From Neisseriaceae bacterium TC5R-5 (GTDB lineage Bacteria > Pseudomonadota > Gammaproteobacteria > Burkholderiales > Chromobacteriaceae): a DNA stretch of 36,291 nt. Below are positions 3,848 to 36,291 of the stretch, one piece after another. The notes beneath the pieces are model-generated. The model searched no databases, was not told where the DNA came from, and worked only from the letters and a program-made list of their open reading frames with translations. The DNA lies in NCBI GenBank assembly GCA_020830965.2, contig JACCFC020000028.1, forward strand, positions 1 through 36,291, written 5' to 3'. Made by a program: the position numbers and the translations under genes. Every line of letters begins with the position of its first letter. The stretch's first letter is position 1.

Positions 3848-6310
3848 TTAAAACAACCAGTTGAGATGCGCTGTGACAGCGTTTTCGCGGGAATTATTGC
3901 TATACAAACCACTGTAAACCAAGCTGACACTAGTTTTTTTACTTAGCTGCATGTCTGCGCCGAGTTCAAAAACAGCAGTATCTTTAGCAATTGGTGTACC
4001 AGCCGCAGTAAATTTGCTACTACCAACCAAGCTTTGTGTTGATTTCGATGTCGTATCACCAAAAGCATGCCGCCAACCAATTTGGCCGTTAATAGTCATT
4101 TTTTCATTGAATGGCTTAACAGCCCTTACCCCTAGAGTGGTGAAAGTGACATTGCTATTTTGGCTGTCAACGTTCAGCGCCGCGAGCTGACCTGCTTCAG
4201 TAAACTCGTTAGTGTGCAGATTAATATGGGTCAGGTTTAAGTAAGGTTCAGCATCTATACCGGCCCATTTTTGAGGTTTGGCCAACTCCCCAAAAACTTG
4301 CAAACTATTAGCCTTATAATTGCTACTTACAGCATCACTAAAACCCGGAAATTTTACGTCGCGCTCGATGTCGAGCTTGTGCAAGTTATAGATAAGACCT
4401 GAACGGAAAAGGATTTTTTCAAATTGAGTACCGGCGTAAACGCCCAGGTGATAATTATCACTAGAGCCACTAGAGTTGCGTGCGCTAGTTTCCATTGTCG
4501 AACGGCTATAACCCGAAAGAGCGCCAACACGCCAATCAGAAAATTGAGCATCACTACCCATCAGAAACCCGGATATGTCGCGGTTCATTTTGGCTGCATT
4601 GCTATTACCATCAATGCTACCAGCAGCACCAAAAGCTCGAGTCCAAAAAACCCGGTCAGGACTGTTAGCCGCGATCTTTTCACCTTTTGCGTTGTATGAT
4701 TTTTCACCAGCTCCGACATTGCCGGAACTTGAGCGTAAGCGATCATTAGCAGCATCACGAATAAAGTGGTTATCTTCGATTAGGCTGGATTTGACGGATG
4801 CGTACAGTTCGCCAGAAATAAGATCAAGAGCATTACGGATTTGATCGGCATTAGATAAGTTTGTAATAGCGTCATTTAGAGCATTGCCGCCACCTTTATC
4901 ATCAAGTGCTTTGCCAGAATTCTTCTGATTATCCGTATCAGCAAGATTATTAATCGGTTTTCCTGCTGCTTCACGCGAAACCGTCAAATAGACGTTGTTA
5001 GCGTCATAATCTAATGCTAGGTCAAGTAAAGGATAAGTATCATTCAACCCAACGAATTTCCCATTAACTCCACCAGCAGCACTTAGAATTTTGTAGGTAT
5101 ATGTATTTTTTGTGTAATCAACAGGTGTATTACCTAATAGATTAGCGTAGACAACACTGTTAGAGATAGTAGCTAATCCTCCTACTTTAAGCAGATCGGA
5201 TTGCTCAAGAGAGTTAACGTTAACTCTATAAGTAAGATTGTTTAAATTGACGCTTCCATCTATCTCTAGTGTATTTATACCTGACCCAGCAATGGCCAGT
5301 TGACTAACGCTATTCAGCGTTAATGAACCAAGGCGGCCGCGCGCGGCAAATTGGCCACCATTCACCGTAACATCGCCATTAAGGTCAGAAAAACCATTTA
5401 AAGTAAAATCACCAGCTCCTGTTTTAGTCAAATTACCACTACCCATCAATGCGCCCATTGCTAAATGACCATCATCGATTTGTATCGTTCCGCCCCCACT
5501 CTGCACCGATAAATTTCTAGGTGTATCAAAAGCATTAGTGACTTGCAGCTTACCTCCATTGAAGGAAATCGCGCCGGAGAGATCACCTAAGTTATTATCA
5601 GCAGATACTCTTATAGTACCTTCTTGAATCAGCGTACCACCGGAATAAGTATTAGCGCTATCAAGCACAAGCGTTCCTGTTCCGCTTTTACTTAATTTCC
5701 CGTCACCGATAACTCCGAATGGACTAGCAATAGAAAATACATTATCGGAAGTTACCTCAATTGTTCCACCAGCATTTAAAAGAGTAACATTTCTTAGCGT
5801 TTCAAAACTATTAGTCACCTGAAGTTTGCCACCGGCAAAATTGATAGCACCAGAGATATCACCTAAGTTATTGTCAGCAGAGACTCTTATAGTACCTTCT
5901 TGAATCAGCGTACCACCGGAATAAGTATTAGCACTATCAAGTACAAGGGTTCCTGTTCCACTTTTGGCTAATTGCCCTGGACCAGAGATGGCAGCACAAT
6001 TTTCATAATCACCAAATGTACAAGGGTTAATAATAGAAAACACATTATCATTAGTGATTTTAATGGTTCCTCTGACATCTTTAATTACAAACCATCTATC
6101 AGTAGTTGAAGATCCAGCCATTTCTGCTACACCTCCGGCTCCCGTAAATGTGGTTAAACAATCACCACCGGGATCAGAAGTACGAGTACACAAACCATAG
6201 TTAAATGCAGCAGAGGCTTCTGGTACGTGAGCCAACATCAGGCCGCCGAGAATGCAACTCCAGATGGCTTTGCGTTTGAAAGATGGGGTGCTAGTAATTT
6301 TATTACTCAT
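3848..6310 (-). CDS. Autotransporter (type V secretion) with PATR passenger
   Basis: 820 residues. A Sec signal (residues 1-34, cleavage after EASA) is followed by a passenger with autotransporter-associated beta-strand repeats: GTGTLVLDSANTYSGGTL occurs at about 118-135 and 210-227, within two near-identical units of about 92 residues. The C-terminal 270 residues form a predicted 12-strand beta-barrel ending in LNWLF, the usual terminal aromatic for BAM recognition. The passenger should be displayed on or released from the cell surface, most likely as an adhesin-like protein. No protease triad was identified. It is divergent from an XRE regulator and is cargo rather than transfer machinery. 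Confidence 0.9.
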   Translation of the reverse strand: MSNKITSTPSFKRKAIWSCILGGLMLAHVPEASAAFNYGLCTRTSDPGGDCLTTFTGAGGVAEMAGSSTTDRWFVIKDVRGTIKITNDNVFSIINPCTFGDYENCAAISGPGQLAKSGTGTLVLDSANTYSGGTLIQEGTIRVSADNNLGDISGAINFAGGKLQVTNSFETLRNVTLLNAGGTIEVTSDNVFSIASPFGVIGDGKLSKSGTGTLVLDSANTYSGGTLIQEGTIRVSADNNLGDLSGAISFNGGKLQVTNAFDTPRNLSVQSGGGTIQIDDGHLAMGALMGSGNLTKTGAGDFTLNGFSDLNGDVTVNGGQFAARGRLGSLTLNSVSQLAIAGSGINTLEIDGSVNLNNLTYRVNVNSLEQSDLLKVGGLATISNSVVYANLLGNTPVDYTKNTYTYKILSAAGGVNGKFVGLNDTYPLLDLALDYDANNVYLTVSREAAGKPINNLADTDNQKNSGKALDDKGGGNALNDAITNLSNADQIRNALDLISGELYASVKSSLIEDNHFIRDAANDRLRSSSGNVGAGEKSYNAKGEKIAANSPDRVFWTRAFGAAGSIDGNSNAAKMNRDISGFLMGSDAQFSDWRVGALSGYSRSTMETSARNSSGSSDNYHLGVYAGTQFEKILFRSGLIYNLHKLDIERDVKFPGFSDAVSSNYKANSLQVFGELAKPQKWAGIDAEPYLNLTHINLHTNEFTEAGQLAALNVDSQNSNVTFTTLGVRAVKPFNEKMTINGQIGWRHAFGDTTSKSTQSLVGSSKFTAAGTPIAKDTAVFELGADMQLSKKTSVSLVYSGLYSNNSRENAVTAHLNWLF
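5560..5990 (-). repeat. Two tandem passenger repeats in the autotransporter gene
   Basis: The segments around 5570-5690 and 5850-5970 are nearly identical at the DNA level (for example GTACCTTCTTGAATCAGCGT in both), with a spacing of about 276 bp. They encode the two PATR units. High DNA identity suggests recent duplication, and unequal recombination could vary passenger length. Confidence 0.8.
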
Positions 6311-8779: not shown

Positions 8780-9128
8780 TGTGGATAGGTCAAACGACAC
8801 GAAAACATAGGTCAAACGACACGAAAACATAGGTCAAACGACACGAAAACATAGGTCAAACGACACGCGGCATAGGTCAAACGACACGATTTGGCCTTGG
8901 CGCGGACTGAAAACATAGGTCATACGACACGTAACATAGGTCATACGACACGATGTCCGTTTTTCGTCAGTTTGACTTGCCAAGTTATCCACAATCGCGG
9001 ATGCAATCTGCATGATTGGGTGTCGTTTGACCTATGTTCTCGCTTTTGAGCGTAGGTCATACGACACGCCTTGTAGGTCATACGACACGCTTTCGGCTCG
9101 ACTAGGTCGGGTCGTGTCGTTTGACCTA
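8780..9128. other. oriV: oriV: 11 iterons and DnaA boxes
   Basis: A 16-bp iteron TAGGTCAAACGACACG occurs at 8786, 8808, 8830, 8852 and 8873 (spacing 21-22 bp). The variant TAGGTCATACGACACG occurs at 8916, 8937, 9053 and 9074. Inverted copies lie at 9019-9034 (one mismatch) and 9113-9128. A perfect DnaA box TTATCCACA lies at 8985-8993, and a one-mismatch box (TGTGGATAG, reverse strand) at 8780-8788 overlaps the first iteron. The helically phased iterons and nearby trfA mark the vegetative origin. Origin function is inferred. Confidence 0.92.
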
Positions 9129-9144
9129 TGCCTTAGAAACGCCA

Positions 9145-9171
9145 AAGGGCGCTTGCGCGCCCTTGTTTTTT
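9145..9171 (+). terminator. Terminator at the right edge of oriV
   Basis: AAGGGCGC and GCGCCCTT (9145-9152, 9157-9164) form a stem with loop TTGC, followed by GTTTTTT. It faces plus-strand transcription and would insulate sequence to its right from transcription through the iterons. Confidence 0.8.
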
Positions 9172-9189
9172 CTGGGGTGTAAGAACGAA

Positions 9190-10190
9190 TGTTATTTGCG
9201 ACTCAGGATCAGTTTCTGCGAATAAGGGTTGCTATTTGCGACTACTTTCTCACTCGGGGTAACTTTTGTAATGTTGGGTGTAGCCAGATGCATGTTTCCA
9301 TACTTAGGGGGAGGCTTAAGTCGCACAGAATGCTTTTCTGAGCAATTAAGCACCATAGAGTCCATAAACTTTCTCCACGGCCCACGCGGTTTTCTGGTAG
9401 ATAGCATGCTTCTAGTAAGCCGCTGATAGAGGTTTCCTCCAGATCATCTAGCATTCGGATTAAGCGCTCTCGGTGGCCGGGATGGTGTGGTGCAAAGCGA
9501 TATGACCAAAGAAACTGAATATTTTGTAGTAATCCCGTTCGAATTTGCTTCTCAGTAAAAATACGGAATTGCCAGCCGCGTTCATTTGCGTAAGCTCGAG
9601 CGGCTTTGAACTTTGGCTTTAAAGTTGACCAATTCAGCTTCAAGTCCTTTTGATACTTTACTTCACACAGCAAAGGCTTACGCGTGGAGCGTCCCACGGC
9701 TGAATGGTTGATGAAACTGACAAGTAGATCAGGGGTATAAGAGCGTGTGCGCCTGTCTGTGTCTTGAAATAAGATTTTTACCGGCTGAACTTGGAACCAG
9801 TCGAGCTCATCCTGCCAAGCCGTGAGCAGTATGAGGTCTCGTTCCAGTGATGACTCAAACTCTTTGCCTAGCAACTTACCAGTCAAACTGATGGTATTGA
9901 TTGGAATGCGGCGAGCAGCTTCGGGAGTACCCACGTTTAGCAACCAAGAAATAGATGCTCTCATCTTAAAATTACCCTCTTAATATGGCAAATCAGATGA
10001 AGGAGATGAGTGCCACAAAAAATGTTTTTGGCATGAGATAATGTTCTAGAATGCAGAGCACCGGACATTGTTAACGTCTTCGCCGTGTAGAAATACTCTG
10101 GCGGTGAAGTTTTTGGGAGGTGGAATACATTGTGTATCAAGGTAAGTCGCATATAATTCTCCTGTTTTCGGTGACTAGTCGCAAATAGCT
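9190..10190 (-). mobile_element. Mini Tn7-like element carrying only tnsA (candidate)
   Basis: Related motifs lie at both edges. Left: TGTTATTTGCGACT (9190-9203) and TGCTATTTGCGACTA (9230-9244). Right, read on the minus strand: AGCTATTTGCGACTA (10190-10176) and TATATGCGACTTACC. Multiple subterminal repeats in opposite orientation at the two ends are typical of TnsB-binding ends of Tn7-like elements. The only recognisable gene between them is tnsA, with no tnsB, tnsC or target selector. I find no clear 5-bp target duplication, so exact termini are uncertain. Confidence 0.5.
9242..9964 (-). CDS. tnsA: TnsA-family transposon endonuclease
   Basis: 240 residues against about 270 for Tn7 TnsA. The restriction-endonuclease-like core is visible: E41 in SSLERDLILL, D79 in SYTPDLLVSF, and E101/K103 in LLCEVKYQKDL, matching the Glu-Asp-Lys catalytic set. 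The C-terminal TnsB/TnsC-interacting region (WTLWCLIAQKSILCDLSLPL) is also present. In Tn7, TnsA cuts the 5' ends while TnsB cuts the 3' ends. Here TnsB and TnsC are absent, so it is orphaned, needs partners in trans or has been co-opted. It sits between end-like repeats and splits oriV from trfA. A short ORF at 9961-10203 overlaps its start by 4 bp. Confidence 0.85.
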   Translation of the reverse strand: MRASISWLLNVGTPEAARRIPINTISLTGKLLGKEFESSLERDLILLTAWQDELDWFQVQPVKILFQDTDRRTRSYTPDLLVSFINHSAVGRSTRKPLLCEVKYQKDLKLNWSTLKPKFKAARAYANERGWQFRIFTEKQIRTGLLQNIQFLWSYRFAPHHPGHRERLIRMLDDLEETSISGLLEACYLPENRVGRGESLWTLWCLIAQKSILCDLSLPLSMETCIWLHPTLQKLPRVRK

Positions 10191-10221
10191 GTCGGATTAA
10201 CATGGGGGGTTGCCGGGGGCG

Positions 10222-11139
10222 TCACTCGCGGACGCAACATATTTGGTCATCCTTGTTTAGCCTGGCCGCGTCTGCAATCTTGGCTTCCACCACTTCGGTG
10301 CAAGCGCGCTTGACGGTCTGCCGCCAGCTTGCCGTGTTTGAGTCGGACGAACCACACATTTGTCGGAACTTGGCCAAGGTCAGCGGGAAAGGGTGTTTGT
10401 GGCTCTCGATGTAGTCGGCCAGGCGGCGGGCAACCGGCGACAGGTCGCGGTAAATTTCCCATGAATGGCTTGTGAACGTGTTACCGGCGAACAAGACAAT
10501 TAGGTTCGGGTCAATCCACACACGGTATTGCGTGGGCTTGCCTTCCGAGTCGTTGACGACGGTGTAGTTCTGAATCAGCGAGATTGCGCCGCTCTTGCCG
10601 TATGCCTTGGAGTTGAGGGCCAACACTTCGTTGGCTTTTAACCTGGTAATGCACTCGCGGGCGCGGTCGTAGTTCCGGCCACTCTTTGACCAATTCACGT
10701 CGCGCACCAAGTCTTTGACGCTGAATTCAAAAGGTGCGCCTAAGGCTACGCTTTGGCCGTAGCTAAGAATTTGCAACCAAACAAGCTCGTCATCCTCGGC
10801 CCGTAGCTCGATGCCAGTGTAGAGGATAGAAACATGCTCGTTGTAGTGGAAAAGGCGCTCGTGCATGAGAGTCTTGCGCGGCTGGCGCTTGTTGCGGGCA
10901 GTGAAAAGCGAACTGCGCGCGTAGTCGTTCGGGATGTGCCGCAAGTCGTCACGATCTCCTATGGTGTCGGGAAAAATCAAGTCAAGCTGGAACTGGTCGC
11001 CGGGCTTCAGGCCCTTGCTGTTGAGGTAGGCGCGGCGCTGCAAACGTTCAAGCTGTGCGTCTGACTTCTTTTCGCCAGGCGCGGGCTTGCCTGGCTCGGT
11101 AGGCATGGCTTTTTGTATGTGTTCAAAGGCGGTTTTCAT
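10222..11139 (-). CDS. trfA: TrfA-type plasmid replication initiator
   Basis: 305 residues. The pattern FHYNEHVSILYTGIELRAED, WLQILSYGQ, VLFAGNTFTSHSWEIYRDLS and PVARRLADYIESHKHPFPL closely follows IncP-1 TrfA (winged-helix initiator domains, about residues 95-295). TrfA binds iterons and recruits host DnaA and helicase. Its length is nearer the short TrfA form (285 residues) than the long form (382). GGGGCC lies upstream at a plausible ribosome-binding distance. The iterons it should bind lie 1.1-1.4 kb away across the TnsA insertion. It follows korA, so control by KorA/KorB-type repressors is likely. Confidence 0.93.
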   Translation of the reverse strand: MKTAFEHIQKAMPTEPGKPAPGEKKSDAQLERLQRRAYLNSKGLKPGDQFQLDLIFPDTIGDRDDLRHIPNDYARSSLFTARNKRQPRKTLMHERLFHYNEHVSILYTGIELRAEDDELVWLQILSYGQSVALGAPFEFSVKDLVRDVNWSKSGRNYDRARECITRLKANEVLALNSKAYGKSGAISLIQNYTVVNDSEGKPTQYRVWIDPNLIVLFAGNTFTSHSWEIYRDLSPVARRLADYIESHKHPFPLTLAKFRQMCGSSDSNTASWRQTVKRACTEVVEAKIADAARLNKDDQICCVRE

Positions 11140-36218: not shown

Positions 36219-36291
36219 ACGGACTAAAAACAGACAATTACGGCACATATATCAGACATTTTTGGTACTTAAAAAACATTTAACGGACTAA
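36219..36291. repeat. Terminal direct repeat, copy 2 (circular overlap)
   Basis: Identical to bases 1-73. Dropping one copy joins oriT directly to the promoter of the traK-like operon. Confidence 0.93.

Follow-up and report, generated by a model that had tools for sequence, protein, structure and literature searches.

The described systems closest to the locus reported here are the Tn6022/AbaR backbone of Acinetobacter and the mini-transposons used in the laboratory. The former is a comM-type Tn7-like transposon with TnsA, TnsB, TnsC and TniQ (PMC10293859, partial text), while the latter are constructs of about 1 kb in which two ends without the full transposase set are mobilized by a helper in trans (PMC8188705, partial text). 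TnsA decides between cut-and-paste transposition and cointegrate formation (same partial text), and of the Tn7-like transposons collected in one survey 20% lie in plasmids, some of them without an identifiable tnsE (PMC8649781, consulted as an incomplete copy). Deletion derivatives that keep their ends are known for transposons generally; the Tn7-like form was unseen in the searched literature, and a search in which subscription journals were mostly outside the coverage returned no description of a solo-tnsA Tn7-like mini-element.

The window, that is, the whole stretch of 36,291 nucleotides that was analysed, is one entire contig (C70) of the 148-contig assembly of the host, Neisseriaceae bacterium TC5R-5 (G000). 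Since its two ends (1-73 and 36219-36291) are identical over a 73-bp overlap, it most likely represents a closed circular plasmid of about 36.2 kb. It carries trfA, a KorA-family gene, a VirB4-type transfer gene and iterons. An 820-aa autotransporter gene with PF03797 and PATR repeats is also present at 3848-6310 on the minus strand, adjoined by a Cro/C1-type regulator gene whose resemblance to RstR falls below the cut-off. Between the origin and its initiator gene lies what is, with good confidence, a natural non-autonomous two-ended Tn7-like element, derived from a comM-type parent by internal deletion and transposed into the plasmid. The features of the locus are as follows.

8785-9130, no strand: oriV iterons of the ATAGGTCAAACGACACG type in both orientations
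9145-9164, no strand: hairpin GGGCGC-NNAA-GCGCCC, also found between trfA and the iterons of G178
9173-9177, no strand: target-site duplication copy 1, TGGGG, abutting the terminus
9178-10202, minus strand: whole mini-element, 1025 bp, with TGT..ACA termini, TnsB-type sites and TGGGG flanks
9178-9266, plus strand: far (right) end, terminal TGT at 9178, sites at 9193-9203, 9213-9223 and 9233-9243
9242-9964, minus strand: tnsA, 240 aa, PF08722 (E 3e-17) and PF08721 (E 7e-8), both over cut-off
9965-10202, minus strand: tnsA-proximal (left) end and leader, terminal TGT at 10202, sites at 10187-10177 and 10155-10145
10203-10207, no strand: target-site duplication copy 2, TGGGG, abutting the terminus
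10222-11139, minus strand: trfA, intact initiator gene, PF07042 (E 8e-70)

The element is 1025 bp long (9178-10202), with its tnsA-proximal end at 10202 and its far end at 9178. An earlier note, made from the letters alone, had described opposed repeats on both sides of tnsA, and these are present. The sequence TATTTGCGACT occurs three times exactly in the window, at 9193-9203 and 9233-9243 on the plus strand and at 10177-10187 on the minus strand, against a shuffle expectation of 0.02, and none of 100 shuffles reached three copies, which rules out chance repeats. A fourth copy, at 10145-10155 on the minus strand, differs at one position; when two mismatches are allowed the count (13 found, 12.7 expected) is not above chance. 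The near, tnsA-side end thus has two predicted TnsB-type sites and the far end three, the latter spaced 20 bp apart with a degenerate middle site, TTTCTGCGAAT, at 9213-9223. The composite TGT-N12-TATTTGCGACT, with one mismatch allowed, is found only at 9178 on the plus strand and at 10202 on the minus strand, both exact (expectation 0.02). An edge at 9190, as first proposed, was rejected: the TGT there is part of the first site, while the TGT at 9178 gives the same 17-nt spacing at both ends and matching flanks, so that the edges were corrected to 9178-10202. A 5-bp flank match at the spacing of the element occurs at 29 of 35,255 window positions (0.0008), and among TGT..ACA pairs 700-1500 bp apart in 11 of 5088 (0.002), the element itself being included in both counts. 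TGT..ACA termini with predicted TnsB-type site arrays at both ends, a 5-bp target-site duplication (TGGGG on both sides) and a TnsA endonuclease of the PD-(D/E)XK type together place it among the Tn7-like elements.

The gene between these ends is the full-length-looking tnsA that the note had recognized, with both TnsA families (PF08722 and PF08721) over 240 aa, and it is the only recognizable gene of the element. As the open reading frames confirm, tnsB, tnsC and a target-selection gene are missing from the interior: the frames between the ends are all too short for tnsB, tnsC or tniQ, and the one other frame of at least 80 codons, an 80-codon frame upstream of tnsA, has no family match. The element therefore lacks the internal tnsB, tnsC and tniQ/tnsD of an autonomous Tn7-like transposon, and with its intact 240-aa TnsA it is not a MITE, which has no coding capacity. 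Residues E41, D79, E101 and K103 are invariant across the aligned TnsA sequences; from this conservation, the product is expected to retain 5'-end cleavage once TnsB and TnsC are provided. A PDB profile search with the TnsA alignment gave no match, and a single-sequence PDB search (E up to 10) listed 9bw1, by its entry title a TnsABCD-DNA complex, at E 0.15 and, with the same query, an unrelated capsid protein at E 0.84.

A search for full Tn7-like elements with matching ends, as had been suggested, yielded three, and all of them split comM. A TnsA match of some kind was found in 18 of 61 relatives and a strong one in 10 of 61 family genomes (overlapping sets, host included in both). The nearest genes are those of Vogesella oryzae (G078; 78% identity) and of G030 and G031 (V. 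margarita; 75%), with 73-78% over the full alignment. Their elements measure 28.2 kb in V. oryzae, 17.9 kb in G030 and 27.2 kb in V. margarita, and are bounded by 5-bp duplications (GGCGG, CTCCG and CCGCC, respectively). The tnsB domain PF09299 is present in all three (G030, G031 and G078), and in G030, the only one so tested with Pfam, tnsC (TniB) and tniQ follow tnsB. In Formivibrio citricus tnsA is 60% identical and the tnsA-side end lies in comM (frame recognized by eye). In a tree of 15 TnsA rows the window gene clusters with G030, G031 and G078 (99/99) and with Formivibrio (97/99), the order among the four not being settled by it.

The ends tell the same story of descent. A terminus of the form TGT, 17 nt, then GCGACT or GCGAAT (GCGAMT) is common to the window element and the three complete relatives. 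The far-end layout of three sites at 20-bp spacing recurs in G030 and V. oryzae, the latter with the same degenerate core in its middle site, and the two near-end sites recur in G030, V. margarita and V. oryzae. The first 57 nt of the tnsA-proximal end are 81% identical to the V. oryzae end, and the rest of the leader is mostly unconserved. The second near-end site overlaps an ATG, which is the tnsA start in G030 and Formivibrio; in the window a 63-codon open frame runs from there, with no recognizable relationship past its first residues. By the descent of tnsA and ends (clade at 99/99, end alignment) the element is thus of comM type; it does not share the insertion in comM, since it lies 19 nt past trfA on a plasmid.

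Two further observations were made on the complete elements. In both Vogesella elements a 163-codon gene lies between the near end and tnsA and starts inside the second TnsB-type site:

L024 17752-18243, with a V. oryzae counterpart: 163-aa near-end gene (open frame)

The comM elements also have a single TniQ of 518-522 aa (L022 15575-17131 and L045 13465-15033; the Pfam test covered G030). In G030 it is not followed on its own strand by any gene of TnsF size. This TniQ is possibly a TniQ-TnsF fusion, as in a single case in PMC10293859, as far as the accessible text of that paper goes.

Judged from its sequence, the window element is an internal-deletion derivative of such a transposon. Nucleotide homology of its tnsA to that of V. 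oryzae can be followed to element position 936 (window 9267), which leaves 23 nt (9244-9266) up to the innermost far-end site, and the tnsA stop codon (9242-9244) overlaps the site at 9233-9243 by 2 nt. The C-terminal codons read KLPRVRK, compared with ADAPANENN and ADDAGDED in G030 and G031, and these residues come from the deletion junction. The missing region runs from the last tnsA codons to the far end, and in the relatives it holds tnsB, tnsC, tniQ and cargo. The note's suggestion of a non-autonomous mini-transposon is accordingly well supported by the end architecture, the 5-bp duplication and this junction as compared with complete elements.

The host assembly contains no PF09299 protein by a search that finds the domain in three of three relatives, an absence that is not absolute across 148 contigs, and it gave no match with the G030 TnsB as query. 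Its comM, with the N-terminal half as query, is a single match in a 538-aa open frame that looks uninterrupted. The 10-base end pattern (TGT, 14 nt, TTTGCGA) occurs seven times in the host; a control pattern occurs 18 times, so single hits are meaningless, and the only copies that converge on one contig are the two on C70. No second copy of the element was found by protein in the 61 relatives or the 61 family genomes (overlapping sets, both with the host), by end pattern in the host, where no other converging end pair of the TGT/TTTGCGA form exists, in genome_contigs beyond the three complete-type relatives, or in viral_contigs. No parent of tnsA nearer than 78% was found, and third-position GC of the gene is 0.47 against 0.59-0.77 in the relatives; the true parent therefore most likely belongs to another lineage and is none of the compared elements. 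Overall GC is 0.448 in the element; the remainder of the plasmid has 0.468 and the G030 element 0.627.

These observations suggest the following course of events. The parent would have been a comM-type element with tnsA, tnsB, tnsC, tniQ and cargo, about 18-28 kb in the relatives. An internal deletion from the last tnsA codons to the far end spared both ends with their TnsB-type sites, tnsA most likely being kept as the gene that adjoins a retained end. By its sequence, the element entered between trfA and oriV through Tn7-type transposition, leaving the 5-bp duplication. Since it encodes none of tnsB, tnsC and a selector, and no tnsB was found in the host assembly, movement would depend on a complete relative in the same cell to provide TnsB, TnsC and a target selector. 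Several points count against this reading: the mini-element is known in a single copy, no parent of tnsA nearer than 78% turned up, the related trfA loci are too diverged to give a letter-exact empty site, and the insertion lies outside comM, where the near relatives sit.

The strongest alternative changes the order of the last steps: a full-length element would have entered the plasmid, for instance by a TnsE-like plasmid route, and been deleted in place, so that the mini-form never moved. We give this close to, if slightly under, an even chance. It predicts the same termini and 5-bp duplication, nothing specific speaks against it, and there is no second copy to decide. It draws on a conserved gene of about 620 aa (620-629 aa) that the three complete relatives carry immediately inside their far end, in a position and on a strand like those of tnsE in Tn6022, which also lies just inside the far end (PMC10293859, in the portion available). 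The gene is 53% identical between G030 and G031 and 56% to V. oryzae; its Formivibrio counterpart is a more diverged 566-aa frame. The rows for this far-end gene are:

L023 8035-9897, minus strand
L034 2928-4817, minus strand
L061 1555-3414
L045 15958-17658, minus strand

It has no Pfam match (G030 and G031) and its structure model was unusable. BLASTP found no similarity to the one A. baumannii far-end hypothetical protein compared in this way, out of two, and a profile comparison with both gave a probability of 15.7 and E 0.0017, these proteins being taken as Tn6022-type TnsE by position alone. The gene is only a weakly supported candidate for a TnsE-like plasmid target selector, and given this weak test the plasmid route is a lead only.

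A different question is why tnsA is still intact. It may have been kept by selection, supplying TnsA to a helper in which it is absent or weak and so giving cut-and-paste products instead of cointegrates, the choice that TnsA sets (PMC8188705, from the part at hand). The full length of the gene, its four invariant residues and, in the comparison with V. oryzae, a strong skew of changes towards silent positions (pN 0.13, pS 0.82) are in keeping with this. The skew shows past constraint on the gene but may date only from the time in full elements: for all window tnsA pairs pS is saturated or nearly so (0.80-0.84, against pN of 0.13-0.29), which makes the recent branch unreadable, and the host assembly yielded no TnsB-type helper with or without tnsA. 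We regard selective retention as quite unlikely. Its more elaborate form, in which the element is a TnsA-donating mini-transposon, stripped to its ends and the subunit that cuts the donor, that parasitizes whatever co-resident TnsB/TnsC machinery has compatible ends and, through its own TnsA, obtains cut-and-paste even from a replicative helper, is likewise held to be very unlikely.

The insertion between oriV and trfA that the note had reported holds, the iterons (8785-9130) lying on one side of the element and trfA (10222-11139) on the other. In Nitrosomonas eutropha p1 (TrfA 77%) and in the G178 contig (TrfA 68%) the iterons follow trfA with no inserted gene, so two related trfA-oriV loci lack the segment; a letter-exact empty site was not found, the related trfA loci being too diverged. 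When the window flanks are joined, they share with G178 the hairpin GGGCGC-NNAA-GCGCCC right after trfA; it is now on the oriV side of the element (9145-9164), which separates it from the trfA stop codon. As the hairpin scored terminator-like on the plus strand only, loss of a trfA terminator is not claimed. A blastn search of the locus against 72,556 plasmids returned nothing, and a gonococcal plasmid (TrfA 48%) has no tnsA by trfA, according to its annotation table alone. No close sister plasmid turned up, and among 399 genomes of the order a similar trfA (E 1e-30) is present in only two, one of them the host. The note had named in advance two observations that would speak against its reading, a fixed backbone gene in related plasmids and the lack of intact ends; neither was made, since the related loci that were read lack the gene and both ends are intact.

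An effect on copy control, which the note had raised, appears weak. TrfA acts in trans, the complete trfA is intact, and the insertion lies after its stop codon, at a distance of 19 nt. A domesticated plasmid endonuclease, with the flanking repeats as coincidence or relics, is highly improbable: tnsA is intact and, sharing the strand of trfA, may be expressed by read-through from it, but the terminal architecture and duplication are those of a transposon, the two related trfA-oriV loci lack tnsA, and no sign of a new role was seen. Only one promoter-like site was called in the region, immediately ahead of tnsA, against a chance expectation of 2.2.

The rarity of the arrangement was assessed in 399 genomes of the order. 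PF08722 gave 78 rows, of which seven under the cut-off were dropped and 71 kept; five are TnsA-B fusion-sized (>900 aa), 52 are followed by PF09299 within 5 kb, and 14, including the window, are unpaired. Among the other 13 unpaired loci, tblastn gave a TnsB match for eight (that for G169 being weak, E 3e-4), the locus of G234 has a TniB gene downstream, that of G283 is of the NUMOD3 homing-endonuclease type, and those of G428 and G043 are fragments of 149 and 134 aa. Hence, out of 66 unfused TnsA-family genes, only the window gene and that of G349 are intact with no tnsB, tnsC or other assignment found within about 5 kb, and among such solo genes in the 399 genomes two ends were seen for the window tnsA alone. 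The G349 gene (L048 4539-5685) lies directly downstream of glmS (recognized by eye) with no recognized tnsB; it has one end, with three 15-bp sites at 20-bp spacing, a second end not being found, and has the appearance of a dead remnant left by a glmS-type Tn7-like element.

The locus indicates, from its sequence, that Tn7-like ends with a duplication can exist in nature around a single tns gene, and it provides a short natural pair of ends for the comM-type family. Surveys that start from tnsB, as does PMC8649781 to judge from its partial text, miss such elements, and Tn7-like elements of the non-autonomous kind may therefore be undercounted.

Compared with its comM relatives (G030, V. margarita, V. 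oryzae and Formivibrio), the element shares TnsA at 75-78% (60% in Formivibrio), the TGT+17+GCGAMT ends, the 20-bp far-end spacing and 5-bp duplications where both ends are known, only the tnsA-side end having been seen in Formivibrio. It differs in being 1 kb, with tnsA only and on a plasmid, whereas the relatives with both ends known span 18-28 kb. Tn6022/AbaR belongs to a different tnsA clade, albeit on long branches, has a separate TnsF gene and is of full size; the window TnsA has 31% identity to the one from an A. baumannii plasmid element. The solo tnsA of G349 is similar in being intact, with no recognized tnsB and with three sites at 20 bp in one end, but it sits beside glmS and has a single detected end. 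The element is best seen as a natural counterpart of laboratory mini-Tn7-type constructs: where those carry foreign cargo, the cargo here is its own tnsA.
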